Shown here: positions 10,456 to 27,244 of the stretch, piece by piece
How positions within the stretch are numbered: the first letter of the stretch is position 1
Layout: each line of letters starts with the position of its first letter
Assembly (NCBI RefSeq): GCF_900102345.1
Contig: NZ_FNKB01000001.1
Span: 868,001-932,000 of the forward strand
Direction: 5' to 3'
DNA: 64,000 nucleotides
Source: Leucobacter chromiiresistens
GTDB taxonomy: Bacteria; Actinomycetota; Actinomycetes; Actinomycetales; Microbacteriaceae
Translations under genes and position numbers: made by a program
The notes under the pieces: generated by a model
What the model was told of the DNA's origin: nothing
Database searches by the model: none
The model's input: the letters and a program-made list of their open reading frames with translations, nothing else

Positions 10456-10665
10456 TCAGAACCCCTCGCTGCCAAGCCGGCGCGAGGGGTTCGTCGTTGC
10501 CTTCATGAACTGACGCACCAACGCGCGCTTCTTGAGGAAATACGCATGCCGTTCGAGCTCGCCCGCCGCATACTGTGCTTCGAGTTCCGCGAGGGTCTCA
10601 TCGGCTGCCGCCGCGTCAAACCGGGAACGGTCCTGCCCGAAATCATCACTCGATCTAATCTTCAT
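10456..10665 (-). CDS. Small protein encoded downstream of umuC
   Basis: A 69-aa protein, overlapping the end of umuC by 4 bp (ATGA), with helix LAELEAQYAAGELERHAYFLKKRALVRQFMKA, resembling short SHOCT-like oligomerisation helices. It is coupled to umuC and was probably the third gene of the SOS operon; with umuC broken, its translation is likely impaired. Function unknown. Confidence 0.6.
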   Translation of the reverse strand: MKIRSSDDFGQDRSRFDAAAADETLAELEAQYAAGELERHAYFLKKRALVRQFMKATTNPSRRLGSEGF

Positions 10666-11669
10666 GCTTTCGCCTCACACATCTCATCCCAATGCGTTGT
10701 GGCACGCCTGGACAGCATCTCTCGTTTCATCGTCCATACCGGAGCGCCCTGGAGCCCGCCACGGCCGATCCCAATCGCGCGCGGGCCGAGCTTCTGAGTG
10801 ATCGCATCGAGCGTTTCCCCGATCCGTCGACCCTCATACTCTGACTCGAACAAAGCCAGGGGAGTGACGTTCGTCTTGGTCTGCAACCCCGTGAGCACGA
10901 CCCCCGCTCGCACGTACTCAGAGCCGGGCCGAATCTTCGGGAGCACCGCGAACGCTGCCTTCGATATCCCGATCGGGCCATCTGTCTCGGTCGACATCCC
11001 AACTGCGACGTGCGCGGTGTGGAACTCTCTTTCCCGGAATCGGCTCGTCGACGCCCACGCGGACACGATGCCAGCTACCAGGCCTTTCTCTCGGAGACGC
11101 GTGCTCGCGCGCTGCGCGTATATCGAGAACACCTGCTGCATCCCCTCGCGCGTCGACACAGCCCGCGAGAACGAACGGGAGAAGATCAACTGATCCTTAT
11201 GGGGTGGCTGCTCCTCGAGCGGGATGCACGGGATGCCCCGCAGCTCGAGCACGGTGCGCTCCATCACGACGGAGAACTTCTTCCTGATCCACTTCGCGTC
11301 AGCATTGCGGAGATCTTTCGCGGTGAAGATGCTCATCGCAGCGAGGCGCTTCCCGGTGCGGCCGGCAATGCCCCAGAGGTCGGTCGTTTTCGTGCCCGCG
11401 AGAATACGTTCCAACCAGTCGGGGGAGTACGCCCCCAAATGGCACACACCGCCCAGTGAGAGGTCGGCCTTCGCGCCCCGCGAGGCGAGCTTCGCTTGTG
11501 TCTTTGACGGGGCGATGCCGACACGGACGGGGATCCCGGTGCAGCGCAGTACCTCGGCGCGGATCTCGTGCCCAATCGCGGTGAGCTCGGAGACCGTGCC
11601 GTGCATCCCGATGAAGGACTCGTCGATCGAATACACCTCCTGCCACGCGGAGTACCTGCCGATGATCTC
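10662..11669 (-). pseudogene. umuC: umuC, third (3') fragment: Y-family DNA polymerase
   Basis: 335 codons from EIIGRYSAWQEVYSIDES to the stop: catalytic Asp-Glu of the palm, thumb and little-finger domains of a translesion DNA polymerase. The N-terminal 85 codons lie at 27244-27053 and 18144-18082. The junction at 11669/11670 is where UmuC similarity stops. Joined, the three segments give a 420-residue UmuC in frame. This fragment alone lacks the first catalytic Asp and must be inactive. Confidence 0.92.
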
Positions 11670-11729
11670 TACTGGTAGCTACGATTGTTGCCGAGTCGCG
11701 TATTCGGGAGTCGGCGAACGTGGAGACTG

Positions 11730-11756
11730 TTCAGTCGTTACTGTATAGTTCATTGC
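11730..11756 (+). promoter_or_regulatory. CmtR-type promoter/operator, probably leaderless
   Basis: Contains TTCAGTC, then CTGTATAGTTCA directly before the start ATG 11757. Almost the same sequence sits at the same distance before the second cmtR gene (34828-34854). TATAGT as -10 would put transcription start at or next to the ATG, so translation would be leaderless. The conserved block is the likely CmtR operator. Confidence 0.65.
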
Positions 11757-12116
11757 ATGCTGACCATTGCTTCTCGCCTCGACGTCATGAACCGGCTGGG
11801 CCGCGCCATGGCCGACCCGTCCCGCTCCCGAATCCTGATGACCCTGCTGGACGGGCCGAGCTATCCGGCCGTGCTGTCGCGCGAGCTGGAGCTGACCCGC
11901 TCGAACGTGTCGAACCATCTGACGTGCCTGCGCGACTGCGGGATCGTGGTCGCCGAGCCGGAGGGTCGGCAGACCCGGTACGAGATCGCCGACCCGCACC
12001 TCGCTGCGGCGCTGACGACGCTGGTGGACGTGACGCTGGCGGTAGACGAGAGCGCGCCGTGCGTCGATCCCGGGTGCTCCGTGCCGGGCTGCTGCGGGAC
12101 GGAGGCGAAGGCATGA
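11757..12116 (+). CDS. cmtR: CmtR-like ArsR-family Cd/Pb sensor repressor
   Basis: A 119-aa winged-helix repressor that should release DNA on binding Cd or Pb. The HTH is TRSNVSNHLTCLRDCG (about residues 45-65), containing the CLRDC pair, and the C-terminus has several Cys (APCVDPGCSVPGCC). This matches the CmtR ligand set of recognition-helix Cys plus C-terminal Cys. No ribosome site precedes ATG 11757. Its stop overlaps the ATPase start (ATGA), so the two are coupled. Confidence 0.88.
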   Translation: MLTIASRLDVMNRLGRAMADPSRSRILMTLLDGPSYPAVLSRELELTRSNVSNHLTCLRDCGIVVAEPEGRQTRYEIADPHLAAALTTLVDVTLAVDESAPCVDPGCSVPGCCGTEAKA

Positions 12117-14083
12117 GCGCGGCATGCGGCTGCGACCACGACGCCCCCGTCGCCGTGGAGGAGAGCGAAGAAGTCGAACGCCCCTGGTGGCGCGATCCCG
12201 CGATCCTCGTGCCCGTCGCCTCGGGTGTCTTCTTCCTGGCCGGGCTGATCACCGAATGGACGGCCGGGGAGAGCGCCGCCGCCGGGATCACTGCACTGGC
12301 GCTGTTGTGGATCGGCCTGCTACTCGGCGCGTGGACGTTCGTCCCGGGCGCGCTGCGCGGCCTGTTCACCAAGGGCAAGCTGGGCATCTCGCTCCTGATG
12401 ACGATCAGCGCCGTCGGCGCGGTGATCCTCGGCTACGTCGAGGAAGCCGCCGCCCTGGCGTTCCTCTACTCCATCGCCGAGGCCCTGGAGGACAAGGCGA
12501 TGGACCGCGCCCGGTCGGGGCTTCGGGCACTGCTGAGGCTCGTCCCCGAGACGGCGACGGTCGTCCGGGGCGATACCGCGGTCGAGGTGCCCGCCCGCGA
12601 CGTCAAGGCCGGGGATGTCCTGCGGGTGAGGCCCGGCGAGCGGGTCGCCACCGACGGCACCGTGGCAGCGGGTCGCAGCAGCCTGGACACTTCGGCGATC
12701 ACCGGGGAGTCGATTCCCGTGGACGTCGGGGTCGGCGACGAGGTCGCCGCCGGGTCGATCAACGCCTCCGGCGCGCTGGAGATCACCGCCACCGCCGACG
12801 GCGCGGACAACTCGCTGACAACCCTGGTCGGCCTGGTCGAGCAGGCCCAGCAGGACCGCGGCCAGCGTGCTCGGCTCGCCGACCGGATCGCCCGACCCCT
12901 GGTGCCCGGCGTGATGGTCCTCGCCGTGCTGGTCGGGGTGCTCGGCTCCCTGCTCAGTGGCGACCCGCAGACCTGGATCACCCGCGCCCTGGTCGTGCTC
13001 GTGGCCGCCTCGCCATGCGCGCTGGCCATCGCTGTGCCCGTGACCGTGGTGTCGGCGATCGGAGCCGCAAGCAAGTTCGGCGTCATCATCAAGAGCGGGG
13101 CCGCGTTCGAGCGCCTCGGCTCCCTGCGCCGGATCGCCGTCGACAAGACCGGCACTCTGACGCGCAACGAGCCCGCGGTGACCGATGTCGCCACGATTCC
13201 CGGGGTCGCCCGCGACGACGTGCTGGGCTGGGCCGCGGCTCTGGAGGAGAACAGCACGCATCCGCTCGCGACGGCGATCACCAGCGCCGCTCCCGGCGCG
13301 CCTACGGCGTCCGAGGTGACCGAGCAGCCCGGGCATGGCGTGACCGGGCAGGTGGACGGCCACGAGATCGCGGTCGGAAGCCCGCGATGGATCGCCCCCG
13401 ACGGGCTGGCCGAGCAGGTCGCCGCTATGGAGGCCGACGGGCAGACCTGCGTCATGGTCGCTCGCGACGGGAGTGTGGTCGGTGTGATCGGTGTCCGCGA
13501 CGAGCTGCGCCCCGAGGCCCCCGAGGCCGTCGCCGCTCTTCAGGCGCAGGGCGTCGAGGTCGTCATGCTCACCGGCGACAACGCCCGCACCGCGGCCGCG
13601 CTCGCCCGGATCGCGGGCATTTCGGACGTCCGCGCCGAGCTGCGCCCGGAGGACAAGGCCGCCGAGGTCACCGCGTCGGTGGCGCAACGCCCGACCGGCA
13701 TGATCGGCGACGGTATCAACGACGCGCCCGCCCTGGCGTCCGCCACGGTCGGCATCGCGATGGGCGCGACCGGCTCCGACGCCGCGATCGAGTCCGCCGA
13801 CGTCGCCTTCACCGGCCACGACCTCAGGTTGATCCCGCAGGCGCTCGGGCACGCCCGCCGCGGACGGGCGATCATGAACCAGAACATCGTGCTGTCGCTG
13901 GCGATCATCGCCGTGCTCCTGCCGCTGGCCATCACCGGGATCCTGGGCCTGGCGGCCGTCGTGCTGGTCCACGAGGTCGCCGAGGTTGTCGTCATCGCCA
14001 ACGGCCTGCGTGCTGCCCGTGCGAAGAGGGTAGCGCTGACCGCGTCAGTCGACTCGCGCGCGGACTCCCCAGTAAGAGTCTGA
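12113..14083 (+). CDS. Heavy-metal P1B-type ATPase (SPC type), Cd/Zn/Co efflux
   Basis: A 656-aa efflux pump without an N-terminal HMA domain but with a short Cys/His N-terminus (CGCDHD). Motifs: TGES (about 197), metal site Ser-Pro-Cys (300-302), phosphorylation DKTGTLT (D344), STHPLA, and GDGINDAPAL (about 532). The SPC motif in place of CPC is typical of the P1B-4 group (Co/Zn/Cd). The cmtR-ATPase pair resembles cmtR-ctpG of mycobacteria. It is paralogous to the pump at 36243-38297. Exact metal is not certain; Cd is the best guess from CmtR. Confidence 0.9.
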   Translation: MSAACGCDHDAPVAVEESEEVERPWWRDPAILVPVASGVFFLAGLITEWTAGESAAAGITALALLWIGLLLGAWTFVPGALRGLFTKGKLGISLLMTISAVGAVILGYVEEAAALAFLYSIAEALEDKAMDRARSGLRALLRLVPETATVVRGDTAVEVPARDVKAGDVLRVRPGERVATDGTVAAGRSSLDTSAITGESIPVDVGVGDEVAAGSINASGALEITATADGADNSLTTLVGLVEQAQQDRGQRARLADRIARPLVPGVMVLAVLVGVLGSLLSGDPQTWITRALVVLVAASPCALAIAVPVTVVSAIGAASKFGVIIKSGAAFERLGSLRRIAVDKTGTLTRNEPAVTDVATIPGVARDDVLGWAAALEENSTHPLATAITSAAPGAPTASEVTEQPGHGVTGQVDGHEIAVGSPRWIAPDGLAEQVAAMEADGQTCVMVARDGSVVGVIGVRDELRPEAPEAVAALQAQGVEVVMLTGDNARTAAALARIAGISDVRAELRPEDKAAEVTASVAQRPTGMIGDGINDAPALASATVGIAMGATGSDAAIESADVAFTGHDLRLIPQALGHARRGRAIMNQNIVLSLAIIAVLLPLAITGILGLAAVVLVHEVAEVVVIANGLRAARAKRVALTASVDSRADSPVRV

Positions 14084-14124
14084 CCTTCGGACCAAGCCCA
14101 CGACGCTCTTGAGAGGAGCTCGAT

Positions 14125-14457
14125 ATGGAGATCACGATTCAGTCCTTCGACGGCTGCCCGAATCGTGACCTGCTGGAGCAGCGGCTTGCTCAGGCGCTCA
14201 ACAGTTGCGGCGGGGACGTGACGATCGCCCATCATTCGGTGGAAACGCCCGAGGACGCGGCACGGGTAGGCTTCCGGGGCTCCCCGACGGTCCTTATCGA
14301 TGGAGTTGACCCGTTCGCCGAGGGGCATGCTTTCGTCGGTCTCGCCTGCAGGGTCTATCGGACTGCCGATGGCCCGTCCGGGTCTCCGAGCGTCGCACAG
14401 CTCCGTGCTGCGATCAAGGACGCGACGACAGGGCAGGGTGAAGGCAGTGCGCTTTAA
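14125..14457 (+). CDS. Small thioredoxin-fold protein of metal-resistance cassettes
   Basis: A 110-aa protein with FDGCPN near the N-terminus, a single redox-type Cys, and VGFRGSPTVLIDGVDPF, the cis-Pro segment of thioredoxin-like folds. It continues with the LACRVYRT motif often seen in proteins next to mer and cad genes, sometimes labelled alkylmercury-lyase-like. GAGAGGAGCTCGAT precedes ATG 14125. Third gene of the cmtR operon; it probably handles metal thiolates, but activity is unproven. Confidence 0.7.
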   Translation: MEITIQSFDGCPNRDLLEQRLAQALNSCGGDVTIAHHSVETPEDAARVGFRGSPTVLIDGVDPFAEGHAFVGLACRVYRTADGPSGSPSVAQLRAAIKDATTGQGEGSAL

Positions 14458-14508
14458 GTGAGGTCTGCCTTCGTCGGCGGTGGAGGTCAGACTGGGCGCG
14501 GGGAGCGG

Positions 14509-16470
14509 TCAGTCTGCCTTGGAACGGAGATCTGGATACTCCGTCCAGTCCCCTCCGGCGAGGCGTCCCCAAGCGGCTGCCGCGGCGGGAGTGATGCCGA
14601 GCAGGTCGGAGACGATGCGGGGATGCATCTGACGGCTGAGCTCGATAAGCGCTGTCGTGCGGGCGCTCCCTGAGCGCAGGCCTTCGTCACGGAGCCGTCG
14701 GCTGATCGGTCCGGGTGTGAGGTGGTGGCCGGGATTGCGGCCGGGGAAGAGCCACGCCTCCGGGCGCTGCATGGTTCTCTCGACGAGCGCGACGATCGCT
14801 TCTCCGAGGATCTCTGGTAGCTCGATGGGTTCGGTCCCGATGGTGAGCTTCACGGGCCGTGAGGTCGCGTCGACCTGATCTCGGGTGAGCGTGACGATGC
14901 GGGTGAGATGGAGGCCGTAGAGCAGCACGAGCAGTCCAGCGGCTCGGGTACTCGGGTCCACTGATGGATCGGTGAGGAATCGCCGAGCCATCTGCCACCG
15001 GTGATCAGAGGCGTAGTCGCGGCCCTCCAGGCGACTGATTCGGAACTCGACCTTGAGGGTGCTCAGCCGGTGGCGTCGGAGCCAGCGAGTGAACGGCGCG
15101 AGCGCATCCCGTTGGCTTGGAGAATCGGTGACGTAGGCGTCGAGGGACCGTTGGGGGAACGTCGCGAGAGTCTCCTTCCGCGACCGGATCTCCTGGAGCA
15201 ACGCGGCGCAATACTTCATCGCTGCTCGCTGCTTCTGAAAGCCCGACGCAGATCGAGACCGGCTCCCGGGAGTTGACCGGAATGCTCGGGTGGACCGCAG
15301 AAGCTCCCAGGTGCAGTACCGGCGCAAGATCAGTCGATCCTCGACATCTTCGATTCCGGGAAGCCAGTGTTCAAGCCAATGATCGAAACGAGCGACCTCG
15401 ACATCCAGCTCGGGCAGCACGCCAGCGCGGACCAGAAGCGACAGCAAGAACGCGACTGACTGGCCGGATTGTGCTCTGGTGATGATCGCGTCGGCGGTGA
15501 GGGACACGGTTCCGTCCGCGAGTTCCCGGAGCACCGTCGCGCACTTGCTCTTGTGCAACCAGCGTTCGAGCGAAACCGCGCTGCCATGGTGCGTGATCAG
15601 GTACTCTGCGAGCGGCTGCAGCTCGGCACGAATCCCTCCCGCCTCATCCGCAAGGAGCTGCCGGATCGCGATCGGCCGGCGGCACTCGACGCAGAGGTGA
15701 TGCTTGCGGATCTCTTCGATCGAGCCGCATCCAGGACACGCCATCGTGATCGGCGAGCCCGCGCACTCGGCGCAGACCTTCTGACCGTTCATGAATCCAG
15801 TGAGGAACACCTTGCGTCCGCATTCAGGGCAGGGCTGCGGTGAACGCATCGCGTAGTAGCAGCGGGCGCAGACCCGCCGACCGTCAATGTGCGTGGCGAC
15901 GCGGCCAGGCTCTCCGCAGAGCCCGCAGGTCTTGATCGGCGCGGTGTAGCAGCCCAGGCAGATGAGCTCGGGGCGACGGACGACAATGGTCGCGCGTTGC
16001 CCGCACCGTGAGCAGTCGTCGAACGATCGAGGATCGGCACGCCAGCATTCACGGCAGTAACGCCGCCCGTCGATCGTGCGCTGCACCGGTCGGACGCGAC
16101 CGCATGTCGCGCAGGCGACGGACCGGGCGTTCCGTTCGCACCGGGAACAATGCCGACCGCCGGTCGGTGTCTTGTGGGGCATGCGCACCGCGCGTCCACA
16201 CGACTCGCAGGTTGGCAGCACGATTGTGTCTGTTCCTTCGTCGACAAGCGCGTGGGCCAGGTCTTGGACCGTCACCGGGACGTTCCGGTGCTTCCCTTCG
16301 AGGACCCCGGGCTGCTTGATGAGTGCGAGCTCGAGCAGCCGTTGTGTCAGCGGCACGGGTGCGACCGCCACCACGATCTCCGCTAGGCGTTCGGTCTGAA
16401 TCTGGGGGACGATCGGACGGACGAGAGCGACGATTTCTGCGATTCTCGGCTCCTGCGGGGGCTTTGCCAC
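14509..16470 (-). CDS. TnpB-like protein of transposon A: zinc-ribbon array plus recombinase-like C-terminus
   Basis: A 653-aa protein with about six CxxC...CxxC zinc ribbons between residues 85 and 280 (CESCG, CATCG, CSRCG, CGLCG, CPECG, CPGCG). A helical region follows, then a C-terminal segment resembling a tyrosine-recombinase catalytic fold (LLVLLYGLHLTRIVTLTRDQV; GHHLTPGPISRRL; LLGITPAAAAAWGR...YPD). The His-x-x-Arg box is not recognisable, so catalysis is doubtful. The homologue in transposon B has about ten ribbons. It follows the HTH gene with only 6 bp between. Likely a DNA-reading partner of the catalytic recombinase. Confidence 0.75.
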   Translation of the reverse strand: MAKPPQEPRIAEIVALVRPIVPQIQTERLAEIVVAVAPVPLTQRLLELALIKQPGVLEGKHRNVPVTVQDLAHALVDEGTDTIVLPTCESCGRAVRMPHKTPTGGRHCSRCERNARSVACATCGRVRPVQRTIDGRRYCRECWRADPRSFDDCSRCGQRATIVVRRPELICLGCYTAPIKTCGLCGEPGRVATHIDGRRVCARCYYAMRSPQPCPECGRKVFLTGFMNGQKVCAECAGSPITMACPGCGSIEEIRKHHLCVECRRPIAIRQLLADEAGGIRAELQPLAEYLITHHGSAVSLERWLHKSKCATVLRELADGTVSLTADAIITRAQSGQSVAFLLSLLVRAGVLPELDVEVARFDHWLEHWLPGIEDVEDRLILRRYCTWELLRSTRAFRSTPGSRSRSASGFQKQRAAMKYCAALLQEIRSRKETLATFPQRSLDAYVTDSPSQRDALAPFTRWLRRHRLSTLKVEFRISRLEGRDYASDHRWQMARRFLTDPSVDPSTRAAGLLVLLYGLHLTRIVTLTRDQVDATSRPVKLTIGTEPIELPEILGEAIVALVERTMQRPEAWLFPGRNPGHHLTPGPISRRLRDEGLRSGSARTTALIELSRQMHPRIVSDLLGITPAAAAAWGRLAGGDWTEYPDLRSKAD

Positions 16471-16476
16471 CGCGGA

Positions 16477-16812
16477 CTACTTCGTGCGCGGCCGGCGGAT
16501 GGTGGCGCGGACCGGACGCAGATCGCCGATCGACCCGCGCGTTGCTTCCTCGCCCACCGCGACCGGGACGGCCGCCTCGCGGCGCGTGATCGTCACGAGG
16601 TCATCGAGCGAGCACTCCAGCGCATCGCAGAGCGCCGCGAGGACGTCGAGGCGCACTCGCTGCGGCGGTTGCGTCACCAGCCGGTAGACCTGCTCACGCG
16701 AGAGGTCGACGCCGCGATCCTCGAGCAGCGGCTTCAGCTTGGAGGTCTGGAAGATCCCGCGCGATGCCATCACGCTTCGCAGGTTCCACCCGGTCTCGAG
16801 CTCAACGGTCAT
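16477..16812 (-). CDS. Xre/Cro-like HTH protein of transposon A
   Basis: A 111-aa protein: FQTSKLKPLLEDRGVDLS and VYRLVTQPPQRVRLDVLAALCDALECSLDDLV form a Cro/C1-type helix-turn-helix, followed by a basic tail. It overlaps the end of the recombinase gene by 11 bp and leads into the zinc-ribbon gene. The Tn554 protein TnpC has a similar size. Either an accessory DNA-binding subunit or an autoregulator. Confidence 0.8.
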   Translation of the reverse strand: MTVELETGWNLRSVMASRGIFQTSKLKPLLEDRGVDLSREQVYRLVTQPPQRVRLDVLAALCDALECSLDDLVTITRREAAVPVAVGEEATRGSIGDLRPVRATIRRPRTK

Positions 16813-17920
16813 CTGCTTCTCCTTCGATGAGGGCCCTCAGCGCCTCGGCGAGCACTCGGTTCTTGTAGTCGGAGCTGACGGATGCGTAGATCGACGTCGT
16901 TGACGCGTGCATATGCCCGACCTGTTCCTGGACGAAGCGGTCGGCATACCCGAACTCCAGAAGGTGCGTGACGTAGGAATGACGGAGGCTGTGCAGCGTC
17001 AGATCCTTCGACAGGCCGGCCTCGTCGCGCAGCTCCGCGAACCTCCGGTCGAGATAGCCAGCCGACAACCGAGTCCGCCGCTCGGTCACCCAGAGCGCAT
17101 CCAGACCGTCACCCGGAGCAAACCGGTCGCGGGCCTGCTCGAGCCATTGCTGCATGCCAGGCACCCACCAGTTGAACTCCGGCACCAGCAGCACCGTCCG
17201 CCGCCTCGGCGCGCCTCCGCCGGCCGCTTTCGCCCACCGCACGTGGATCGCGCCGTAACGCCCCCACTGCCGCATCTTCGCGTTGTGGTGCAGATCGACC
17301 GTGTCCAGCATCACGGCCTCGGTCCGGCGCAGACCGAACGCATAGACCGTCTTCAGCAACTGCGCATCCCGCAACGCGCCGAGCGCACCCTTCCGCCCCG
17401 ACGTCACAAGCATTTCCACCCGCGCATCCGCAGTGTCGAACAGCCGCTCGACCTCGTCGTACGTGAACGGGCGACGCTTCCCATCGCCCTCGAACTCGAA
17501 CCGATGCGCGACCGTGTTCCACGGGAGACACACCTGCGACGGCACCTCGCCGAACTCCCGATCGCAGATCGCCATCCAGTCGTACAACGGGTTCGTGAGG
17601 TAGTCGCAGAACCCGCGGATCGCTCCGTGGTGATGCCGCAGCGTCGACAACGCCCGAACGCTCGACGCGGCCTCGGCCGTGAACTCATCGACATCGGCGA
17701 CCGTCCACCGCCACGGCGGCTTGTCCGCGAAATCACGGAAGCGCGTCACCGTCGCCAAACGGTTCTTGATGGTCTGCTCACGCAGCCCGCGAGACAGCTG
17801 CTGATTCCGCCAGCCGTCCACCATCGCGCCGAAGACCTGCTGCTCCGGGTTCGCCAACGTCACGTTCGACGCCGATGTGATCAGCCGAAGCGCCGCAGGA
17901 GACCCGCCAAAATCTTGCAT
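16802..17920 (-). CDS. Tyrosine recombinase (TnpA-like) of transposon A
   Basis: A 372-aa catalytic recombinase with N-terminal core-binding domain (about 25-125) and catalytic domain. Signatures: FGLRRTEAVML (Arg I), LHSLRHSYVTHL (His-x-x-Arg), VQEQVGHMHASTTSIY (Gly-His and nucleophile Tyr). ATG 17920 was chosen over the upstream TTG codons because it gives 372 aa, the same length as the transposon B homologue. This ATG lies inside the TTGCA-N5-TGCAA palindrome, suggesting autorepression. Confidence 0.9.
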   Translation of the reverse strand: MQDFGGSPAALRLITSASNVTLANPEQQVFGAMVDGWRNQQLSRGLREQTIKNRLATVTRFRDFADKPPWRWTVADVDEFTAEAASSVRALSTLRHHHGAIRGFCDYLTNPLYDWMAICDREFGEVPSQVCLPWNTVAHRFEFEGDGKRRPFTYDEVERLFDTADARVEMLVTSGRKGALGALRDAQLLKTVYAFGLRRTEAVMLDTVDLHHNAKMRQWGRYGAIHVRWAKAAGGGAPRRRTVLLVPEFNWWVPGMQQWLEQARDRFAPGDGLDALWVTERRTRLSAGYLDRRFAELRDEAGLSKDLTLHSLRHSYVTHLLEFGYADRFVQEQVGHMHASTTSIYASVSSDYKNRVLAEALRALIEGEADDR

Positions 17921-17929
17921 TAGATGCAA
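17915..17929. promoter_or_regulatory. Palindrome TTGCA-N5-TGCAA at recombinase start (transposon A, internal copy)
   Basis: Reads TTGCATTAGATGCAA on the + strand, perfectly symmetrical except for the central bases, and overlaps the recombinase start codon. A matching site lies near the element end (18055-18069). Likely bound by a transposon protein. Confidence 0.6.
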
Positions 17930-18054
17930 CAAAGTATGGGGCAGTGCATCACCGTGTCAGGTCGATACCCCGCAACCGCACCATCTCGCTTGCTAAGGTC
18001 AGGGCAGTTCGGCACCGAGAGCGGCCAATAGTCGTCGTTTGCAAGCATGAACAG

Positions 18055-18069
18055 TTGCATCTCTTGCAA
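18055..18069. promoter_or_regulatory. Terminal TTGCA-N5-TGCAA site of transposon A
   Basis: Inverted repeat TTGCA-TCTCT-TGCAA, with one more matching base pair on each side, exactly 12 nt from the umuC junction at 18081/18082. It has the same geometry as the terminal site of transposon B, so it is the likely recombinase binding site at this end. Confidence 0.65.
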
Positions 18070-18081
18070 CATGCGATGGTT

Positions 18082-18144
18082 CATCACCCGTGCAGACAGC
18101 GAACCGTACAGCTCGTAATTGCTGGAGCGGGCGACGACGCCGGC
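18082..18144 (-). pseudogene. umuC: umuC, middle fragment (21 codons) between two transposons
   Basis: The 63-bp segment encodes GVVARSSNYELYG and flanking residues ending SARVM, the conserved fingers-domain block of UmuC. It is all that remains between the recombinase ends of transposons A and B. Its frame joins exactly with the fragments at 27053 and 11669. Confidence 0.93.
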
Positions 18145-18156
18145 TTCCCCGCGGTA

Positions 18157-19430: not shown

Positions 19431-19783
19431 GACTGATCGGGTTTGAGTGGCGGCTTCGGGAGGTGATGGCGGCGGCGGGAATGTTCTCCACGACGAAGCT
19501 GGTCCCGCTGCTGGAAGAGCGGGGCGTCTACTTGTCGACGAGCCAGGTATATCGGCTCGCCGCGGAGAAGCCGGAGCGGATGAACATGCAGGCGCTGGTC
19601 GCGCTGCTGGACATCTTCGATTGCACGTTCGAGGAGCTCGCGCCGCGGGTGGTCCTCGGCAGCGCGGTCGCAGCGACCGGGACGACCGATCCTGGGCCGG
19701 AGCGGGGCGATTCGGCGACGAACCGACTCCGGGAGTCGGGCCTGAAGCCGCGTAGGGCGCAGATTCTCCCGCCGGATGCTTGA
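19427..19783 (+). CDS. Xre/Cro-like HTH protein of transposon B
   Basis: A 118-aa protein with REVMAAAGMFSTTKLVPLLEE and QVYRLAAEKPERMNMQALVALLDIFDCTFEELA, a Cro/C1-type HTH like that at 16477-16812, then a Pro/Arg-rich tail. It overlaps the recombinase gene upstream and the zinc-ribbon gene downstream, so the three are translated together. Confidence 0.8.
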   Translation: MRLIGFEWRLREVMAAAGMFSTTKLVPLLEERGVYLSTSQVYRLAAEKPERMNMQALVALLDIFDCTFEELAPRVVLGSAVAATGTTDPGPERGDSATNRLRESGLKPRRAQILPPDA

Positions 19784-22364
19784 CCCGGTCTTCGCCGCGC
19801 TGACCACGCAGATCGCCGCCGTCGAGCAGGCTCTTCCGCGTGAGCGGATCGCCGAGATCGTGAACGGCTCGTTCCGGCAGCTGCCGGTTGCCCGCCGGAC
19901 GCTCGACCTGGTCACGCAGGAACCCGGGCTGCTCACCGCGGCGGATCCGCAGACCACGCCGGCTCTGGCAAGTCTGTTGCTTCGCCTCCACGAGGCTGGA
20001 GCGCGGACTGTCCGACCGCCGCGTTGCGCACACTGCGGCGGGCTGCGGAAGCTGCTGCAGCGCACGCCGACCGGGCGGATCTGCGCTCCATGCGGTCGCC
20101 GTCTCGCTTCCAGGAGCGGACTCTGTGATCGTTGCGGGCACACCCGCCGCGTGCAGACAGGGCCCGGTGAGAGCGCGTACTGCAAACGATGCTGGGTCGA
20201 CATGAAACCCGAAGCGGCCGAGCGCATCGTCGAGCAAGTCCGCCGCCATCGCCGTGTCGCGACCGCGACCATCCTTCGAGCGGTGGAGCAGATGGCGGCG
20301 GACGGGAGGGACCGCCGAGTGCGGCTGATGCTCGAGCTGCAGGCCCACGGCGCGGAGTGGTTCTCCGACCCGGCCGCGGGCTCTGTGCTGTTCGGCACGT
20401 TCTACGACCTTCTCCACGCGGACGGCGCGCGTCTGCCCGAACGACGCTGCGGAGGCTGCGGCACCACGCGCACGCTCACCGAACGCGTCGAGGGACGAGT
20501 GAGCTGCCGACGCTGCTACCGGATCGCGCACCATGCCCCCTGCGATGGCTGCGACGACGTCACCAACCTGGAGCGGGTGCTCTCCGACGGGCGGCGACTC
20601 TGCCAACGCTGCACGAACAAGCTCCCCGACGAGAACGCCGTCTGCGTGAGCTGCGGCAACCATCGACTGATCGCCTACCGCAGCCCGGAGGGCCCGCTGT
20701 GTTCAACGTGTCGGAGCTCCTCCCGGCTGGACACCTGCACGGACTGCGGGGAGCTTGCGCCCTGTTTGTTCCACGGCAGCGAGAAAGCGATCTGCAAACC
20801 CTGCTCCGACAAGGCCAGCGTCGACACCTGCACGATCTGCGGGAACGAGCGGCAATGCCGCTGGCCGGGAACCGCGCGCGCCGCCTGCGAGCAGTGCTCC
20901 AACCCTCGCCAGCCCTGCGTGAGCTGCGGGGAGGTCCGGCTGCGCCACAAGCGCACCGAAGACGGCTCCGGCTATCTCTGCTGGGCCTGCGTTCCGCCGA
21001 TCATCGAGACCTGCACAAGCTGCGGAGACGCTCGGATAGTGAACGGCCGGATCGAGGGCCGGCCGTTCTGCCCGCTCTGCTATCCCCGCCAACCGGAGTC
21101 GTTCCGCCCCTGCACCAGCTGCGGGACCATCACACGGCTGATCGCGAAGCTCTGCCCCCGTTGCCGAGCCGATCAGATGATCCGGGAGATGGTGCCCGAC
21201 GAGCTCGCCGCCTCCGATGCACGCATCGCGCATCTGCGAGAGCGGTGGTTCCAGGGTGCTCCGTCGAAGATCGTCTACGCCTTCGAACGCGGCACCGTCG
21301 CCTGCACGCTGATCACCCGAGTGCTCACCGCCCCATCCCTGCGCACTCACGCCTACCTCGACCAGGCCGGCTCGGAGTATCAGACCCGAGCGGTTCGGTC
21401 CGTGCTCATCGACCACGGGCTGCTCCCACCGCGGGACGAGCTGCTCGCCCGGTTCGAGCTCTGGCTCGACAGCGCACTTGCCGAGATCCCCGACCCGGGT
21501 GAACAGCGCACCGTCACCCAATACGCGCGATGGCGACACCTGCGCGCACTGCGCCGCAACACGATGCCGTCCCGATCAGGCCAGCTGTCCTGGCGGCGGC
21601 TCGAGATCGCGGGGATCATCGAACTGCTGGAATGGATCCATACCCGCGGAGGTTCTCTCGTGTCCCTCACCCAGGCGGATGTCGATGAATGGCTCACCGG
21701 CGGCCGACGCCCGTTCCTGCACCACTTCCTGACCTGGACCGCACGGGCCGGCGCATCCCGACCGCTCACCGCTCCACGCCCGCCATCAGGAGCCTTGAGC
21801 CCGCAAGCCATGAGCGACGAGGAACGCTGGCGGCTGCTCGCCGATGTCACCTCCGACCCGTCCATCAACCCGCACACGAAGCTCGCCGCGGGGCTGATGC
21901 TCATGTTCGGCGTCCGGGCGGCGAAGATCGTCCAGTTGCGCGCGGAAGACGTCACCGTCACGGACCAGGCCGTGGTCGTCCGCCTCGGCCAGGAACCTCT
22001 CGTGCTCCCCGCCGAGCTCGCGCCGGCGGCCGCGGGAGCCGCCAGCAACCGCACCGCGCCTCGCATGTTCGTGGAGAGCATCGAACAGGAGTGGGTCTAT
22101 CCCGGAACCCGGGCCGGGCATCACATGGCCCCCGACACGCTGAATACCCGGCTCCGCGCTGCCGGCATCCCGCCGCGACTTGCCCGCACCGGCGCGCTGA
22201 TAGCGCTCGCGCAGGAACTCCCACCCGTCGTTCTCAGCCGGCTGACTGGCCTGGACATCTCCTCCGCGATCGCCTGGTCCAACGCGATCGGCGCGAACAG
22301 CACCGCCTACGCCGCCGCGGTCGTCGAGCGCGTCGGCATGCCCCTCCCAGTCGTCCTGCACTGA
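19776..22364 (+). CDS. TnpB-like protein of transposon B: ten-ribbon zinc array plus recombinase-like C-terminus
   Basis: An 862-aa protein. About ten zinc ribbons run from about residue 80 to 470 (CAHCG, CDRCG, CGGCG, CDGCD, CVSCG, CTDCG, CTICG, CVSCG, CTSCG, CTSCG), most closed by a second CxxC. The helical middle and C-terminal part align with the transposon A protein (LMLMFGVRAAKIVQLRAEDV; GHHMAPDTLNTRL; LARTGALIALA). Box I keeps an Arg, but the His-x-x-Arg box is missing. A larger array than transposon A explains the 200-aa size difference. Confidence 0.75.
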   Translation: MLDPVFAALTTQIAAVEQALPRERIAEIVNGSFRQLPVARRTLDLVTQEPGLLTAADPQTTPALASLLLRLHEAGARTVRPPRCAHCGGLRKLLQRTPTGRICAPCGRRLASRSGLCDRCGHTRRVQTGPGESAYCKRCWVDMKPEAAERIVEQVRRHRRVATATILRAVEQMAADGRDRRVRLMLELQAHGAEWFSDPAAGSVLFGTFYDLLHADGARLPERRCGGCGTTRTLTERVEGRVSCRRCYRIAHHAPCDGCDDVTNLERVLSDGRRLCQRCTNKLPDENAVCVSCGNHRLIAYRSPEGPLCSTCRSSSRLDTCTDCGELAPCLFHGSEKAICKPCSDKASVDTCTICGNERQCRWPGTARAACEQCSNPRQPCVSCGEVRLRHKRTEDGSGYLCWACVPPIIETCTSCGDARIVNGRIEGRPFCPLCYPRQPESFRPCTSCGTITRLIAKLCPRCRADQMIREMVPDELAASDARIAHLRERWFQGAPSKIVYAFERGTVACTLITRVLTAPSLRTHAYLDQAGSEYQTRAVRSVLIDHGLLPPRDELLARFELWLDSALAEIPDPGEQRTVTQYARWRHLRALRRNTMPSRSGQLSWRRLEIAGIIELLEWIHTRGGSLVSLTQADVDEWLTGGRRPFLHHFLTWTARAGASRPLTAPRPPSGALSPQAMSDEERWRLLADVTSDPSINPHTKLAAGLMLMFGVRAAKIVQLRAEDVTVTDQAVVVRLGQEPLVLPAELAPAAAGAASNRTAPRMFVESIEQEWVYPGTRAGHHMAPDTLNTRLRAAGIPPRLARTGALIALAQELPPVVLSRLTGLDISSAIAWSNAIGANSTAYAAAVVERVGMPLPVVLH

Positions 22365-22589
22365 AATCTGACGATGACGTTTCCAGGGATGTCACGTCGT
22401 GAGAATCGGGCGGCACCGATTCTGCTCGGCGGTCAACTCGTCCTGATCGTGGCCGCGCTCTCCTTCGACATAGGCCACGAACAACACCCACGCCGTGTCC
22501 GATGATCGGCGTCGGGTGGGAGGGCGTCTGGTGTCCGAGTTCGTCGTTCCGGTCAACCACGTCGTATGACCTTGACGTGCAGGAGCCGC
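22365..22589. other. Intergenic region between convergent trio and mer operon
   Basis: About 225 bp between convergent genes. No gene or strong hairpin is seen. It presumably contains the terminators of both operons. Confidence 0.4.
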
Positions 22590-23510
22590 TCAATGCCGCT
22601 CGGTCGGCACGCTCGGCCGGTCCCCGGGAGAGTGCGTCGACTGAGGGTCGCAGCAGTCCTCCTCGGTCCTCCGTCCGGAGTTCCGACGGCGTTGATGAAG
22701 GAATCCGCTTAGTAGCACGATGAGCACCACGGTGGTAGACAGGCCGGCGATGACGCCGGTGTTGCTTTGGAGCCAGTTCGATATCGTCGCCGAGACAGCG
22801 GCGACGTCGGTGCGCCCTGCGGAAGGGGCATCGCCGACGACAACTGGAAACCAGTACCAAGCCAGGTAGACGCCGGTGAGGATCAGGACGGCGGCGGTGA
22901 CCTTGGGAACGAATCGTGTCAGTGCGGCGATCCGCCTGGACAGCACAGAACCGGCTACGGCGGCGACCACGGCGACAAGCAGCAGGACGGTGGCGGAGCC
23001 GGCGGCATAGATGGCGAAGACGAGGAGCAGCCCGACGAAACTGGCTGTCGCCTGGGCCTGGGCGATGACCGCGAGGAGTACGCCGAAGGTGCACGACAGC
23101 GAGGCCGCGGCGTAGCCGACGCCGAAGACGACCATGCGCACGGCGCTGGGCAGCCGTTCGATTGCGCGGCCGGGTATGCCGGGAAGCCGGAGGGACATAG
23201 AGCGTCCGGCTAGCATCGCCCCGCCGAGCAGCACCAACAGGATCCCGACGGCGAGGCCGAGGGCTGGGGCGGCCTGGATCAGGCCCCGTGCGCCGGCGCT
23301 TACCGCGACGCCAGCCAAAGCGAGCGTGCCCGCAAACCCGATCGTCAGCGCGAGGCCAGCCCGTAGGGCGCGCAGCAGGCGCACCGGGGCTGAGGAAGAG
23401 GCGGCGTCGCCCAGCGCATGGGTGATCCAGGCCGGGAGCAGCGCGAAGCCGCAGGGATTGACGGGGGCGATCATCCCGGCGGCGAAGGCAAGGGCGAGGA
23501 GTCCGCCCAT
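22590..23510 (-). CDS. CcdA/DsbD-type membrane thiol transporter in mer operon
   Basis: A 306-aa membrane protein with about six to seven helices. The N-terminal helix contains AGMIAPVNPCGFALLPAW and a middle helix SLSCTFGVLLAVIAQ, the two Cys that pass electrons across the membrane in CcdA-like proteins. The C-terminal extension is polar and ends with Cys-Cys and His residues. It follows the lipoprotein thioredoxin gene by 3 bp. It probably keeps that thioredoxin reduced or moves Hg thiolates; it takes the place usually held by other transport genes in mer operons. Confidence 0.8.
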   Translation of the reverse strand: MGGLLALAFAAGMIAPVNPCGFALLPAWITHALGDAASSSAPVRLLRALRAGLALTIGFAGTLALAGVAVSAGARGLIQAAPALGLAVGILLVLLGGAMLAGRSMSLRLPGIPGRAIERLPSAVRMVVFGVGYAAASLSCTFGVLLAVIAQAQATASFVGLLLVFAIYAAGSATVLLLVAVVAAVAGSVLSRRIAALTRFVPKVTAAVLILTGVYLAWYWFPVVVGDAPSAGRTDVAAVSATISNWLQSNTGVIAGLSTTVVLIVLLSGFLHQRRRNSGRRTEEDCCDPQSTHSPGDRPSVPTERH

Positions 23511-23513
23511 CGC

Positions 23514-24032
23514 TCAGGCCCCGGCCTTGTGGAGCGCGGAGACGATCGTATCGGCGTCGGGGTCGGTGGCGCGGAAGGTCACCTGTCCGTCACTGTCGAC
23601 GATGATCAGTGTAGACAGCGCGGCGACCCCGAAGCGCTGGGACAGCGCCGCGCCCTCGTCGATGGCGGCGGGGACATGCACGGCGTCGACGTACTCCATG
23701 AACCTCTGAATGGTCTCGGTAGGTTCGCGCGGATCCATGTCGACGGCGAGGAACTGGGCATCGATGCCGGCCTCCTCGGCCGCGGCTGCCGCCTGACCGA
23801 GGGATCGGACTCCGCCGACGCATTCGCCGCAGCCGACGGAGAAGAAGAACACCGCGGTGGGCTTCCCGGCGGCGGGCAGGCTGATCCGCTGAGCGTCGAT
23901 GCTGGTCACCGTCGCGGCGGTGGCAGTCTCGGCAGAGACGGGATCCTTATCAACGGTGCCGCAGGCGGTCAGGATGAGCGAGCCTGCGAGCAGGAGGGTG
24001 GCGAGCGAACGACGGGCGCGGGAGCTGATCAT
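23514..24032 (-). CDS. Thioredoxin-like lipoprotein in mer operon
   Basis: A 172-aa exported lipoprotein: signal peptide with lipobox LTAC (about residue 24), then a thioredoxin fold with active site VGCGEC and the cis-Pro region replaced by VAALSTLIIVDSDG. It overlaps the gene upstream by 4 bp and is followed by the CcdA-like gene. The pair could reduce or bind Hg(II) outside the membrane, in the role of MerP. Confidence 0.75.
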   Translation of the reverse strand: MISSRARRSLATLLLAGSLILTACGTVDKDPVSAETATAATVTSIDAQRISLPAAGKPTAVFFFSVGCGECVGGVRSLGQAAAAAEEAGIDAQFLAVDMDPREPTETIQRFMEYVDAVHVPAAIDEGAALSQRFGVAALSTLIIVDSDGQVTFRATDPDADTIVSALHKAGA

Positions 24033-24328
24033 TGGTTCTGTTCGCCCTTCGGGTCGGTGCGGTGAGCGGATTCGGTGGGCGGGCAGCAGTCAGGTTCGAC
24101 ACGGCCGCGGCGGGTTCGGCGGCGGACGACGACGAGCAGCACGATCGCGAGGAGCGCAATGCCCACGCCGATCACCCACGGGTTGCCGAGAAGGAGCCCG
24201 CCGATGCCAGTAAGCATTCCGCCGGCGATGAGCACGGGCAGCGCGCAGCAGATCGTCATGAGGAGCACGGCACCGGCTCCCAGGAGTAGGCCACCGCCTC
24301 GCGTTCGGTCGTCGTGTTTGGAGGTCAT
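24029..24328 (-). CDS. Small MerT/MerF-like mercury transport membrane protein
   Basis: A 99-aa protein with two transmembrane helices. The first contains the vicinal pair ICCALP, as in MerT/MerF, and a C-terminal CCPP follows the second helix. ATG 24328 is preceded by AAGGA; a TTG at 24361 overlapping the merB stop is the alternative. It lies between merB and the thioredoxin lipoprotein. Transport of Hg(II) to MerA is the likely role. Confidence 0.7.
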   Translation of the reverse strand: MTSKHDDRTRGGGLLLGAGAVLLMTICCALPVLIAGGMLTGIGGLLLGNPWVIGVGIALLAIVLLVVVRRRTRRGRVEPDCCPPTESAHRTDPKGEQNQ

Positions 24329-24357
24329 AGCGTTCTCGAATCCTTCTGTGTCGCGGG

Positions 24358-25008
24358 TCAACAGCAGCGGGGACAGTCGTCGGCCACCGGGGTGTCGTCC
24401 TGAAGCAGGTCGAGCAGGCTCGTTGTGAGCTCGTTGCCGATCCGGTAGGCCTCGGCCACCGACACCACCTCGGCACCGGGATGCTCAGAGAGCCACCCGG
24501 TGGCGTCGTCGACGGAGGCGAAATAGTGCACCTGGTTGCAGAAGGCCGAGCGGATCGAGGTGATCTGCTCCAGGTTCACCAGCGACACCACGGCGCTCGG
24601 GGGTGTGACGCCGGTGACACCGGCAACCGGATCGATGGTGACGCGGATCGTCTCTCCGCTGGCCGGGGAGACGGACTCCACGCGCGCTGGGCGATCGAGG
24701 AGGGCCGGGAAGATGAGGGTGTCCAGGGCGCACCAGGTGTAGAGCTCCTCACCGTCGACGGTGAACCGGTGCGGTGTAGGGCGCAGCGTGAGGCCCTGGC
24801 CGACGATTCGGCCCTGGTCGTCGTACTCGGTGTCCTGCATCGCGGCCAGTCCGAGCCGTACCTCGTCGATCGTGCGGCCCGCAGCCACGGACAGCTGTTG
24901 GACGGTGACGGGGTCACCGTCGGCGAGCAGCCGCAGCAGCGGGATGAGCAGGCCGGTCTCTCCCAGTCGGCTGAGCCGCTCGGGCAGTTGCATGCTGAGG
25001 TCAGACAT
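24358..25008 (-). CDS. merB: Organomercurial lyase MerB
   Basis: A 216-aa enzyme splitting C-Hg bonds of organomercurials. Catalytic residues are in place: C93 and D96 in LYTWCALD and C157 in SAFCNQVHYF. The N-terminal winged-helix-like part is present. The C-terminus ends CPRCC, a possible Hg hand-over site to MerA. Start ATG 25008 has a GGA-rich site; merA ends 20 bp upstream. Confidence 0.93.
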   Translation of the reverse strand: MSDLSMQLPERLSRLGETGLLIPLLRLLADGDPVTVQQLSVAAGRTIDEVRLGLAAMQDTEYDDQGRIVGQGLTLRPTPHRFTVDGEELYTWCALDTLIFPALLDRPARVESVSPASGETIRVTIDPVAGVTGVTPPSAVVSLVNLEQITSIRSAFCNQVHYFASVDDATGWLSEHPGAEVVSVAEAYRIGNELTTSLLDLLQDDTPVADDCPRCC

Positions 25009-25028
25009 CGTGGGTTCCTCCAGTTCGT

Positions 25029-26453
25029 TCACGCGCAGCACGACAGGAGCGACGGGTCGGTGGTGAAGGCCTTGGCGGCGATCCGGATGCCCTCGGCCAT
25101 GGTCAGGTAGGGGGCCCAGGCGTCGGCGACCTCGGCGACCGTCTTGCCGAGCACGTGGACCCCGGCGGCGGCGAGCTCGCCGGCGTCCTTGGCGACGGCG
25201 GTGATGCCGAGGATCTTCCCGGTGTCGGCGTCCACGACGATCTTGACGAAGCCGCGGGTGTCGCGGTTGACCAGTGCGCGGGGCACGTGGTGCAGGGGCA
25301 GGACGCGGCAGTCGCAGCGGATCCCGGCGGCGACGACGTCCTTCTCGGTCATCCCGACCGCGCCGATCGCCGGGCCGGTGAACGTCACCCTCGGCAGTCG
25401 GGCGTAGTCCACGGCCCGATCGGCGTCGGCGAACGCGTTCTCGGCGACGAGGGTGCCGTGGTGGGCGGCGACGTAGACGAACTCGGGGTGGCCGGTCACG
25501 TCGCCCGCGGCCCAGATCCGCGGGTGGGAGGACTGCATCCGGTCGGAGACGACCACCTCGCCGAGGTCCCCGGTCTTGACCCCGACCCTGTCGAGGCCGA
25601 GCCCATCGGTGGCCGGTCGTCGTCCGAGGGCGACGAGCACCTGGTCGGCGCGGAACTCCTCCCGGCCGCCGGCGACGTCCGCGGTGACGACGGCCTGCCC
25701 GGTCGCGGCGTCGCGGGACACCCGCGTCGGCAGCGCGCGGCGGACCACCCGGATGCCCTCGTCGGCGAACACCTCCTGCAGCGTCCTGGACACCTCCGGC
25801 TCCTCCTTCGACGCGAGCCGGGACCGGACCAGCACGGTGACCTGGGAGCCGAGCCGGGCGAACAGCTGCGCCTGCTCCAGGGCGACGTAGCCGCCGCCGA
25901 GCACGAGCAGGGACTCAGGGAGTTCGGTCAGCTCCATCGCCGTGGTCGAGGTCAGGTACCCGGTCTGGTCCAGGCCGTCGATCGGCGGGGCCCACGGCCG
26001 AGAGCCGGTCGCGACCAGGTAGTGCCCGGCCTCGATCGTCTCGGTGCTCCCGTCGTCCCCGGCGACCTGGAGGACCGGTGCGTCGGGGGTGCCGGCGAAC
26101 GCGGCGTCGCCGCGGCGGACGGCCCAACCGTAGGAGTCGGCGACGTCGGCGTACTTCTCGCCCCGCAGCGACTCGACCAGCGCCTGCTTCCCGGCGATCA
26201 GGGCGGGCATGTCCACTGGCCCCGCCGTCGTCGCGATCCCCGGGAACCGGTCGGCGGCGTCGGCCGCGGAGTGCCGTGCGTCGGCCGCGGCGATCAGGGC
26301 CTTCGACGGCACGCAGCCGGTGTTCACGCAGGTGCCACCGAGCGTCCCGCGCTCGATCATCACCACCGACTTGCCGAGCGTGGTCGCGCGGATCGCGGCG
26401 GCGAACGCACCACCGCCCGATCCGATGATGGCGAGGTCGTACTTCGTGGGCAT
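25029..26453 (-). CDS. merA: Mercuric reductase MerA
   Basis: A 474-aa FAD/NADPH enzyme reducing Hg(II) to Hg(0). FAD site AIIGSGGGAFAAA at the N-terminus, redox pair C42/C47 in GGTCVNTGCVPSK, dimerisation domain at the C-terminus, and the catalytic vicinal C472-C473 in LLSCCA. There is no N-terminal HMA (NmerA) domain. First gene of the mer operon, divergent from merR. Confidence 0.95.
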   Translation of the reverse strand: MPTKYDLAIIGSGGGAFAAAIRATTLGKSVVMIERGTLGGTCVNTGCVPSKALIAAADARHSAADAADRFPGIATTAGPVDMPALIAGKQALVESLRGEKYADVADSYGWAVRRGDAAFAGTPDAPVLQVAGDDGSTETIEAGHYLVATGSRPWAPPIDGLDQTGYLTSTTAMELTELPESLLVLGGGYVALEQAQLFARLGSQVTVLVRSRLASKEEPEVSRTLQEVFADEGIRVVRRALPTRVSRDAATGQAVVTADVAGGREEFRADQVLVALGRRPATDGLGLDRVGVKTGDLGEVVVSDRMQSSHPRIWAAGDVTGHPEFVYVAAHHGTLVAENAFADADRAVDYARLPRVTFTGPAIGAVGMTEKDVVAAGIRCDCRVLPLHHVPRALVNRDTRGFVKIVVDADTGKILGITAVAKDAGELAAAGVHVLGKTVAEVADAWAPYLTMAEGIRIAAKAFTTDPSLLSCCA

Positions 26454-26492
26454 CGCAGCTCCCGTCACTTGGGTTTCTCTTCTTTCTCGGCC

Positions 26493-26524
26493 ATACTGGA
26501 CCTTCCAGTGCAGGGGAAGGTCAA
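26493..26524 (-). promoter_or_regulatory. mer operator-promoter
   Basis: On the minus strand TTGACC (-35) and CAGTAT (-10) are separated by about 20 bp containing the dyad CCTTCC...GGAAGG. The overlong spacer with a central dyad is the hallmark of MerR-activated promoters. It lies between divergent merA and merR. Confidence 0.8.
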
Positions 26525-26557
26525 GAAGGCTTCTGCCGAAAGAAAAGGGGGCCTGCG

Positions 26558-26947
26558 ATGCGCATCGGGGAACTCGCCGAGCGGGCGGGAACGACGGCGA
26601 AGACGCTGCGGTTCTACGAGGAGCAGGGCCTGCTGCCCCCGGCCGAGCGCACGCCGTCCGGATACCGCGACTACGCGCCCGAGACGGCCGCCCGGATCGA
26701 CTTCGTCCACCGCGGCCAGGCCGCGGGCCTCACCCTCGCCCAGATCCGCCAGATCCTCGACATCCGCGACGGCGGCGCTGCTCCCTGCGAGCACGTGCGC
26801 GATCTCCTCGACGCGCGCCTCGCCGAGATCGAGCAGCAGATCGCCCAGCTCACAGCGCTCCGAGACACCATCGCCGAGCTCAGGCACGACGCCGCGCAGC
26901 CCGACCCCGACTCGTGCAGCGCGGACCAGGTCTGCCGGTACCTGTAG
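26558..26947 (+). CDS. merR: MerR, Hg(II)-responsive regulator
   Basis: A 129-aa regulator. The HTH is MRIGELAERAGTTAKTLRFY, followed by the antiparallel dimerisation helix. The Hg ligands C77 (APCEHV), C120 and C126 match the three-Cys site of MerR. Divergent from merA with the operator in between; it is the last gene before the cargo end of transposon B. Confidence 0.92.
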   Translation: MRIGELAERAGTTAKTLRFYEEQGLLPPAERTPSGYRDYAPETAARIDFVHRGQAAGLTLAQIRQILDIRDGGAAPCEHVRDLLDARLAEIEQQIAQLTALRDTIAELRHDAAQPDPDSCSADQVCRYL

Positions 26948-27052
26948 CTCACGGAAAATCCTCTCGGCTCTCCCAAGCGACGAGAACGGAAAGTCGTGCA
27001 GAATCCCCCGTCCGCCAAATAGCGCCAAATCAAATAACGCGCACTACCAATA

Positions 27053-27244
27053 GCTTTCCGCCCAGTCCTTGATCTTGAACCAGGGAGCTCCCATCTCGAC
27101 CTGCAGCGCTTTTGCTTCGCGCGACATCGCCACCACGCAACCGTCGTTGTTCGAGAGCACCACAACGGGGCGGCCGTACAGGGAGGGGTCGAAGACCCGC
27201 TCGCAGCTCGCGTAGAACGACTCGCAGTCCACGAGCGCGATCAT
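27053..27244 (-). pseudogene. umuC: umuC, first (5') fragment
   Basis: 64 codons from [19 protein letters not shown] through [13 protein letters not shown]: the first catalytic Asp region and start of the fingers of a Y-family polymerase. ATG 27244 lies 4 bp after the umuD stop. In the sequence as it stands the frame runs into transposon B and stops after three foreign codons. Confidence 0.94.

Follow-up and report, generated by a model that had tools for sequence, protein, structure and literature searches.

Double insertion into one umuC gene of Leucobacter chromiiresistens by two mobile elements of a kind that is in print but little characterized

A umuC gene of Leucobacter chromiiresistens was found to be split into three pieces by two inserted elements, E1 and E2, within the window, by which the whole analysed stretch of 64,000 nucleotides is meant. 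The double split is confirmed as real and beyond chance, because the identical two joints recur in other genomes. E1 and E2 are read here, at a probability of about 0.87, as two lineages of one site-specific, non-duplicating transposon family of the kind published as 'XER modules', with degenerate targets in conserved genes. The double insertion is genuine and instructive, and it involves elements of a kind that has been published but only scantily described. The features concerned are collected in Table 1.

Table 1. Features of the split umuC gene and of elements E1 and E2, with positions in the window.
Feature	Position	Strand	Basis or remark
umuC piece 3, codons 86-420 + stop	10662..11669	-	IMS, IMS_C, DUF4113 domains
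Element E1, 6412 bp	11670..18081	-	left end AACC.. at 18081, right end ..CTACCAGTA at 11670
E1 6-bp spacer CCAGTA, right end	11670..11675	-	end comparison
E1 cargo: ArsR-family regulator, Cd-type P-type ATPase, small ORF	11757..14457	+	ORFs, TIGR01512, Pfam
E1 long protein, 653 aa	14509..16470	-	zinc ribbons + C-terminal recombinase-like fold
E1 HTH protein, 111 aa	16477..16812	-	HTH_26
E1 tnpA, tyrosine recombinase, 376 aa	16802..17932	-	PF00589 1.3e-19, XerD alignment
umuC piece 2, codons 65-85	18082..18144	-	63 bp remaining between E1 and E2
Element E2, 8908 bp	18145..27052	+	left end TTCCCCGCGG.. at 18145, right end ..CTACCAATA at 27052
E2 tnpA, tyrosine recombinase, 373 aa	18309..19430	+	PF00589 2.6e-24
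E2 HTH protein, 118 aa	19427..19783	+	HTH_26
E2 long protein, 862 aa	19776..22364	+	20 CxxC, sub-threshold PF00589 match
E2 cargo, mer genes	22590..26947	merR +, rest -	Pfam (Redoxin, MerB, MerR), MerA/MerB profile matches
umuC piece 1, codons 1-64	27053..27244	-	in-frame join, intact homologues
umuD-like S24 peptidase gene, upstream of umuC	27249..27704	-	domain match

Translation of the joined segments (192 + 63 + 1008 nt) gave a UmuC of 420 aa with no internal stops. The original prediction of one umuC gene cut into three segments that join in frame proved exact in its coordinates, and the insert lengths of 6412 and 8908 bp were upheld. Extra codons at the two joints, the junctions between codons 64 and 65 (64/65) and between codons 85 and 86 (85/86), were looked for in intact homologues, and none were present in the two intact umuC of G253 (same genus, one genome, 86% identical). 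Both joints are gapless in these copies, which read ..WAAT, AGVIARSSNYELYGSMSERVM, TLIG.. and ..WAAT, AGVVACSSNYELYGSMSARVM, EIIG.. across them. Several of nine further intact umuC differ by 1-3 codons before the SSNYELYG motif, so that umuC length at this place is variable in the wider family. UmuC function is most likely gone from the split gene, since no single frame holds the whole polymerase after the split. None of the four matches scored in the source genome (17 candidates) was an intact umuC. A tRNA-Ser gene (7834-7924) and, after it, a phage-type integrase gene on the - strand (7964-9106) lie near the broken umuDC, which because of this neighbourhood may belong to an island integrated at the tRNA gene.

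The ends of E1 were set by comparison with L045, L053/L103, L101, L100, L107, L109, L117 and the tandem of L118, and those of E2 by comparison with plasmid pAP13 (L034) and L149. In the tandem of M. ihumii (L118 9853), ..CTACCAGTA is followed directly by AACCATCG.., and both E1-type ends are fixed by it because a right end there lies directly on a left end. Both elements carry a related trio: a tyrosine recombinase (TnpA; the two copies are 46% identical), an HTH protein of the Cro/C1 type and a long protein with zinc ribbons. The homologous 'recombinase trio' proposed at the outset therefore stands as a related trio in both inserts, but it comprises one canonical recombinase, one HTH protein and one long recombinase-like protein. 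The canonical motif occurs in TnpA alone among the three (GLR..E, H..RH and GH....TT..Y in E1; GMR..E, H..RH and GH....TT..Y in E2), and inspection of motifs found the canonical catalytic motif absent from the E1 long protein and the canonical catalytic Tyr motif absent from that of E2. The relatedness of the long protein to recombinases rests on a fold comparison and, for E2, also on the sub-threshold PF00589 match; when profiles of the long protein and TnpA were compared, no relation was found. An invariant Tyr645 follows Trp634 by 11 residues in the long protein, which makes its inactivity less certain. The trio also gave weak NCBIfam matches to a GmtYZ-type trio, on which a literature search found no paper. 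In the E2 cargo, a ccdA-like gene (label taken from annotated matches), a redoxin gene, a small membrane-protein-like ORF, merB and merA lie on the - strand and merR on the + strand. For E1 the start codon of the ArsR-family regulator was picked by eye, and its small cargo ORF had no Pfam match.

Recurrence at identical codons was found at both sites. E1-type ends lie at umuC 85/86 in 11 loci, with both ends at seven (the window, the second umuC of the source genome, L. salsicius, G014, A. ulcerisalmonis, a MAG contig filed as Verrucomicrobia, and M. nanhaiense) and the right end alone at four (M. oxydans, G047, G291 and G695), some umuC right ends having first been spotted by the end motif itself. 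The copy in G014 (L056) is a degraded umuC that was read by eye from its flanks. A scan of named genomes with the E1 TnpA gave 28 loci, and those at umuC 85/86 included Arthrobacter ulcerisalmonis, Microbacterium nanhaiense, L. salsicius M1-8 (G208, NZ_AOCN01000025.1), M. oxydans and the Verrucomicrobia-filed contig. No trio recombinase was found within 18-32 kb around the umuC right ends L100, L101 and L196, which are taken for that reason to mark decayed or replaced elements. E2-type elements lie at umuC 64/65 in three loci, namely the window, the Brevibacterium plasmid pAP13 (TnpA 86%, antisense as in the window) and the Arthrobacter plasmid pA8H1 (TnpA 65%, antisense, joint placed to +/-1 bp). 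Orientation is constant at each umuC site. These recurrent codons, together with the gapless joints, strongly support the site-preferring, conservative insertion that had been proposed from the window.

Cut umuC genes were also counted from the side of UmuC. Across 398 genomes of the source's family, the listing at 1e-50 contained 45 UmuC matches, spread over 40 genomes, and five of these 45 start at the 85/86 joint (two in the source genome itself, and G208, G047 and G291); 11 of the listed matches were called intact from the open frame alone, and the umuC of G383 has a frameshift that is not at this joint. Among 396 genomes of the source's order, 34 UmuC matches were listed at 1e-90 or better, of which that of G695 is cut at 85/86 besides the two from the source genome, a count that leaves out the partial match G601:C11. 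In the source genome there were five recombinase matches, three of them of the trio type and all three inside umuC. The third such element lies at codon 85/86 of the second umuC in the same orientation as E1.

Three observations on single loci were made in addition. L126 9854, from Arthrobacter sp. 9V, represents a third lineage, 59% identical to E1, and lies antisense at a third umuC site, near codon 140/141. In the M. oxydans locus L116 (3024-9852) the left end falls in a cpaF-like gene, the right end in umuC, and 29 bp beyond this right end, within umuC, another left end follows. The E1-type element in the umuC of L109 is 92% like actinobacterial ones, and the contig, filed under a Verrucomicrobia MAG, is probably mis-binned.

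The umuC pieces might instead be an ancestral scar, left by one insertion that was inherited or that spread together with umuC. The source genome's own pair could indeed be a single event followed by duplication, since its two umuC are 89% alike over the C part and both hold an E1-type element with a P-type ATPase. Between A. ulcerisalmonis and the window, however, TnpA is 92% identical and the umuC pieces only 65 and 43%, and these two insertions are on that account taken to be independent. Given that G253, a genome of the same genus, keeps two umuC genes intact and that near-identical elements occupy other genes, the scar is a very unlikely account of the whole pattern.

The geometry of the ends was examined by treating each element as a circle and comparing the 16 bases on each side as inverted arms. 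A 6-bp gap was best in 10 of the 11 elements first tested and in all six further ones (7-10 of 16 matches), these elements being mostly related and hence not independent; the fit for pA8H1 peaked at 8 with the first joint and at 6 after a 1-bp shift. Shuffling gave P <=0.012 for the 6-bp spacer in nine of the 11 elements, 0.06 for L053, and 0.35 for pA8H1 with the first joint. The E1-type spacer is CCAGTA in 10 of the 11 umuC right ends and CCGTTA in L100; right ends outside umuC say nothing on whether it is constant, since this motif was itself used to locate them. The spacer CCAATA is found in the E2 of the window, in pAP13 and in L149. The 6-mers of the left flank differ between sites, and the spacer is for this reason assigned to the element. 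The insertions show no target duplication and leave the number of target codons unchanged. A possible role of the 4 variable bases before TACCAGTA as a coupling sequence was rejected, because L045 and L046 share these 4 bp in different genes, as do pAP13 and L149.

Insertion sites were then tallied for the 20 E1-type loci whose TnpA was >=80% identical over the matched part and for which a left end was found, with L115 merged with L053 and L125 counted once. L055 and L119-L122 (no E1-like left end within 260 bp before TnpA), L054 (67%) and L126 (59%) as too distant, and L127-L134 (partial TnpA) were dropped. Seven left ends lie at umuC 85/86, five at a single place of a cpaF-like gene (T2SSE domain in the two tested), one in a DAGK-domain gene, one directly at another element's right end and one in the umuC remnant of L116, and five have no assigned target. 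L054 and L064 likewise lie in a cpaF-like gene. Among six E2-type elements (TnpA 65% or more), three lie at umuC 64/65, two at a single profile position of dprA (L149 and L035, the left end of L035 having been placed by eye) and one (L150) before an ORF that we presume to be lsr2-like. No target was assigned to L036, L108, L112, L113, L123 and L125. The ends of the elements in pAP13 (umuC) and in L149 of G729 (dprA) are identical over 45 bases. The idea that umuC is the target as such was thus not sustained, 13 of the 20 E1-type left ends lying elsewhere than at umuC 85/86.

A weak signal is shared between the different targets. A matrix built from the seven umuC sites with 20 bp on each side, the best of four widths for the cpaF sites, placed those sites at ranks 5, 12 and 28 of 1922, L108 at 43 and L113 at 151; other widths gave ranks of 10-89 of about 1950 for the cpaF sites, and across matrix runs L113 ranged over 26-801 and L108 over 11-173. 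The reciprocal cpaF matrix ranked the umuC sites 3 (of 1432), 23, 2, 13, 141, 142 and 182 (of 1922), those of L107, L109 and L117 reaching only 141-182 of 1922; the matrices are not independent tests, because the cpaF sites are mutually homologous. We read this signal as degenerate sequence targeting, in which umuC as such would not be recognized. A tblastn search with UmuC of 33 stretches around family TnpA relatives found umuC only in L045 and L053, besides the degraded L056, and the distant TnpA relatives are accordingly placed mostly elsewhere.

More distant relatives show other ends. A left end of roughly GATAnnnnnnTTATGTCA was found in L041, L044, L048-L051, L061-L063, L065 and L066. The four TnpA copies L048-L051 of G205 have equal score and identity and four different left flanks, CGATA-n6-TTATGTCA, and this type is perhaps a less choosy relative. 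L047 3664 and L052 3714 (52-54% relatives of E1) have the common left end CTGAGCATTATTCG and differing flanks, that of L047 containing what we take, by its motif, to be SRAP.

Homologous recombination or IS-like transposition into umuC as a merely neutral hot region of islands would be a further account of the insertions. The position of umuDC near a tRNA-Ser gene with an adjacent integrase gene and the linkage in L116 of a left end in a cpaF-like gene to a right end in umuC would fit it. It is barely credible beside base-precise sites with constant orientation and no duplication, recurring to the codon. In addition, neither the trio nor those cargo ORFs of E1 and E2 that were scanned matched a transposase family; for three of the small ORFs in the cargo there was no Pfam match of any kind.

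Comparison at the sequence level establishes the ends, the sites, the orientation and the unchanged number of target codons, and the site-specific family reading can be put as a mechanism. The element would recombine as a unit, its ends forming two imperfectly matching inverted arms of 16 bp that enclose a 6-bp spacer, and would be excised as a circular intermediate. TnpA most likely performs the strand exchange between the end junction and the target, and the HTH and zinc-ribbon proteins most likely bind the ends or the target and so fix site and orientation. The E1 type would be directed to degenerate DNA at umuC 85/86 and in the cpaF-like ATPase gene, through the sequence rather than some other mark, and the E2 type to degenerate DNA at umuC 64/65 and in dprA, likewise through the sequence. 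A single umuC would then have received two insertions 63 bp from each other, with each lineage using its recurrent site and its usual orientation there. Target choice is directly testable, because the two lineages use different sites in one gene and identical 45-base ends occur in different genes.

A bolder proposal, which we hold to be rather unlikely, is that these elements form a separate transposon class with a single catalytic tyrosine recombinase, which a dead zinc-ribbon partner of recombinase fold directs to its site, and with targets converging on DNA-damage and DNA-uptake genes. If so, changing the zinc-ribbon partner should change the target gene. The targets umuC (in four places) and dprA would then represent a convergence, to be compared with ssb for GInts, rulB for ILEs and radC for Tn554. 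The loss of such genes is perhaps tolerated, and they may lie exposed at the arrival of foreign single-stranded DNA.

The original prediction regarded the system as a candidate for an undescribed one, which is not supported: the trio and the disruption of umuCD are already in print as XER modules of the Antarctic Arthrobacter plasmids pA2H2, pA8H1 and pA40H2, which carry variable cargo, as described in PMC6305408. These modules have the same three genes as E1 and E2 and share with them variable cargo and insertion in the umuCD module; pA8H1 matched E2 at 59 and 65% (TnpA), 56 and 67% (HTH) and 35% (long protein). Plasmid pA8H1 has the E2-type element at 64/65 and a further module before umuC, that is, two hits in one umu module, whereas in pA2H2 and pA40H2, unlike the window, the module sits between umuD and a full-length umuC. 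Both the element kind (PMC6305408) and, in Pseudomonas, the role of a umuC-type gene as an insertion hotspot (PMC4542609) are thus already known, on what is available of both papers. The accessible text of PMC6305408 gives no ends, codon-precise site, other target genes or spacer. The exact ends, the codon-precise recurrent sites, the other targets and the fixed spacer are new, and no paper on codon-precise sites, cpaF-like or dprA targets or a fixed spacer was found among open-licence PubMed Central papers. A vaguely described module thereby becomes a family of transposons whose ends are exactly defined and whose target sites can be counted; these transposons carry mercury and cadmium-type resistance genes among actinobacteria.

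Other known systems were compared with E1 and E2 by description. ILEs, with three recombinase genes, insert actively into rulB (umuC family) of the Pseudomonas plasmid pWW0, according to the available text of PMC4542609; they resemble E1 and E2 in their row of recombinase genes with cargo, in one ILE-like structure a mer operon, and in a fixed umuC-type site, and differ in that they have three recombinases, occur in Pseudomonas and show a direct repeat, GAT, at the insertion site. GInts are likewise site-specific islands, some preferring ssb, with a partner, GinC, that lacks full catalytic residues, but they are described with four genes (ginABCD) and flanking direct imperfect repeats, in place of three genes before the cargo (PMC5385486, PMC10214605). 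The SE elements resemble E1 and E2 in a partner of recombinase fold without catalytic residues (Tfp), in imperfect inverted arms around a 6-bp spacer and in few targets, and they differ, as far as PMC10214605 describes them, in having four genes (intA, tfp, intB, srap), two RHRY recombinases and a donor footprint and in being reported from Gammaproteobacteria alone. RIT elements have three recombinases with the catalytic motif, which in E1 and E2 is present in TnpA only.

Tn554, which inserts in radC, had been named as a parallel from the outset. Its architecture is indeed similar, with a multi-gene recombinase module, target specificity and no target duplication (the last from a reference title in PMC10214605), and E1 and E2 are likewise site-specific and non-duplicating. 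Membership in the Tn554 family proper would accord with an ordinary recombinase, a long recombinase-like protein and a small protein, with site specificity, absence of duplication and a 6-bp spacer (PMC10214605; PMC3414803, where actinobacterial Tn554-related elements are defined). Tn554, as described there, nevertheless has two RHRY recombinases (TnpA and TnpB) with TnpC, whereas in E1 and E2 the long protein lacks the canonical motif, found only in the short recombinase, and the small protein is a Cro/C1-type HTH protein (HTH_26). Searches of six plasmids with listed Tn554-like elements gave only weak matches to the E2 TnpA in three of five (best 30%, 8.9e-20), none to the long protein in those five, all listed in PMC3414803 (a search without a positive control) and none to TnpA or the HTH protein in pNL1, although pA8H1 and pAP13 were matched in the same searches. 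The 6 bp of Tn554 and SE elements derive from the donor's left flank (PMC10214605), while at E1-type sites CCAGTA stands in 10 of the 11 umuC right ends and the left-flank 6-mers vary, so that on this comparison no donor-derived footprint is seen. The parallel with Tn554 stands for architecture, with weak or no sequence matches in the six plasmids and no donor-derived footprint seen, and we consider membership in the Tn554 family proper unlikely, E1 and E2 being closest among the systems compared to the XER modules.
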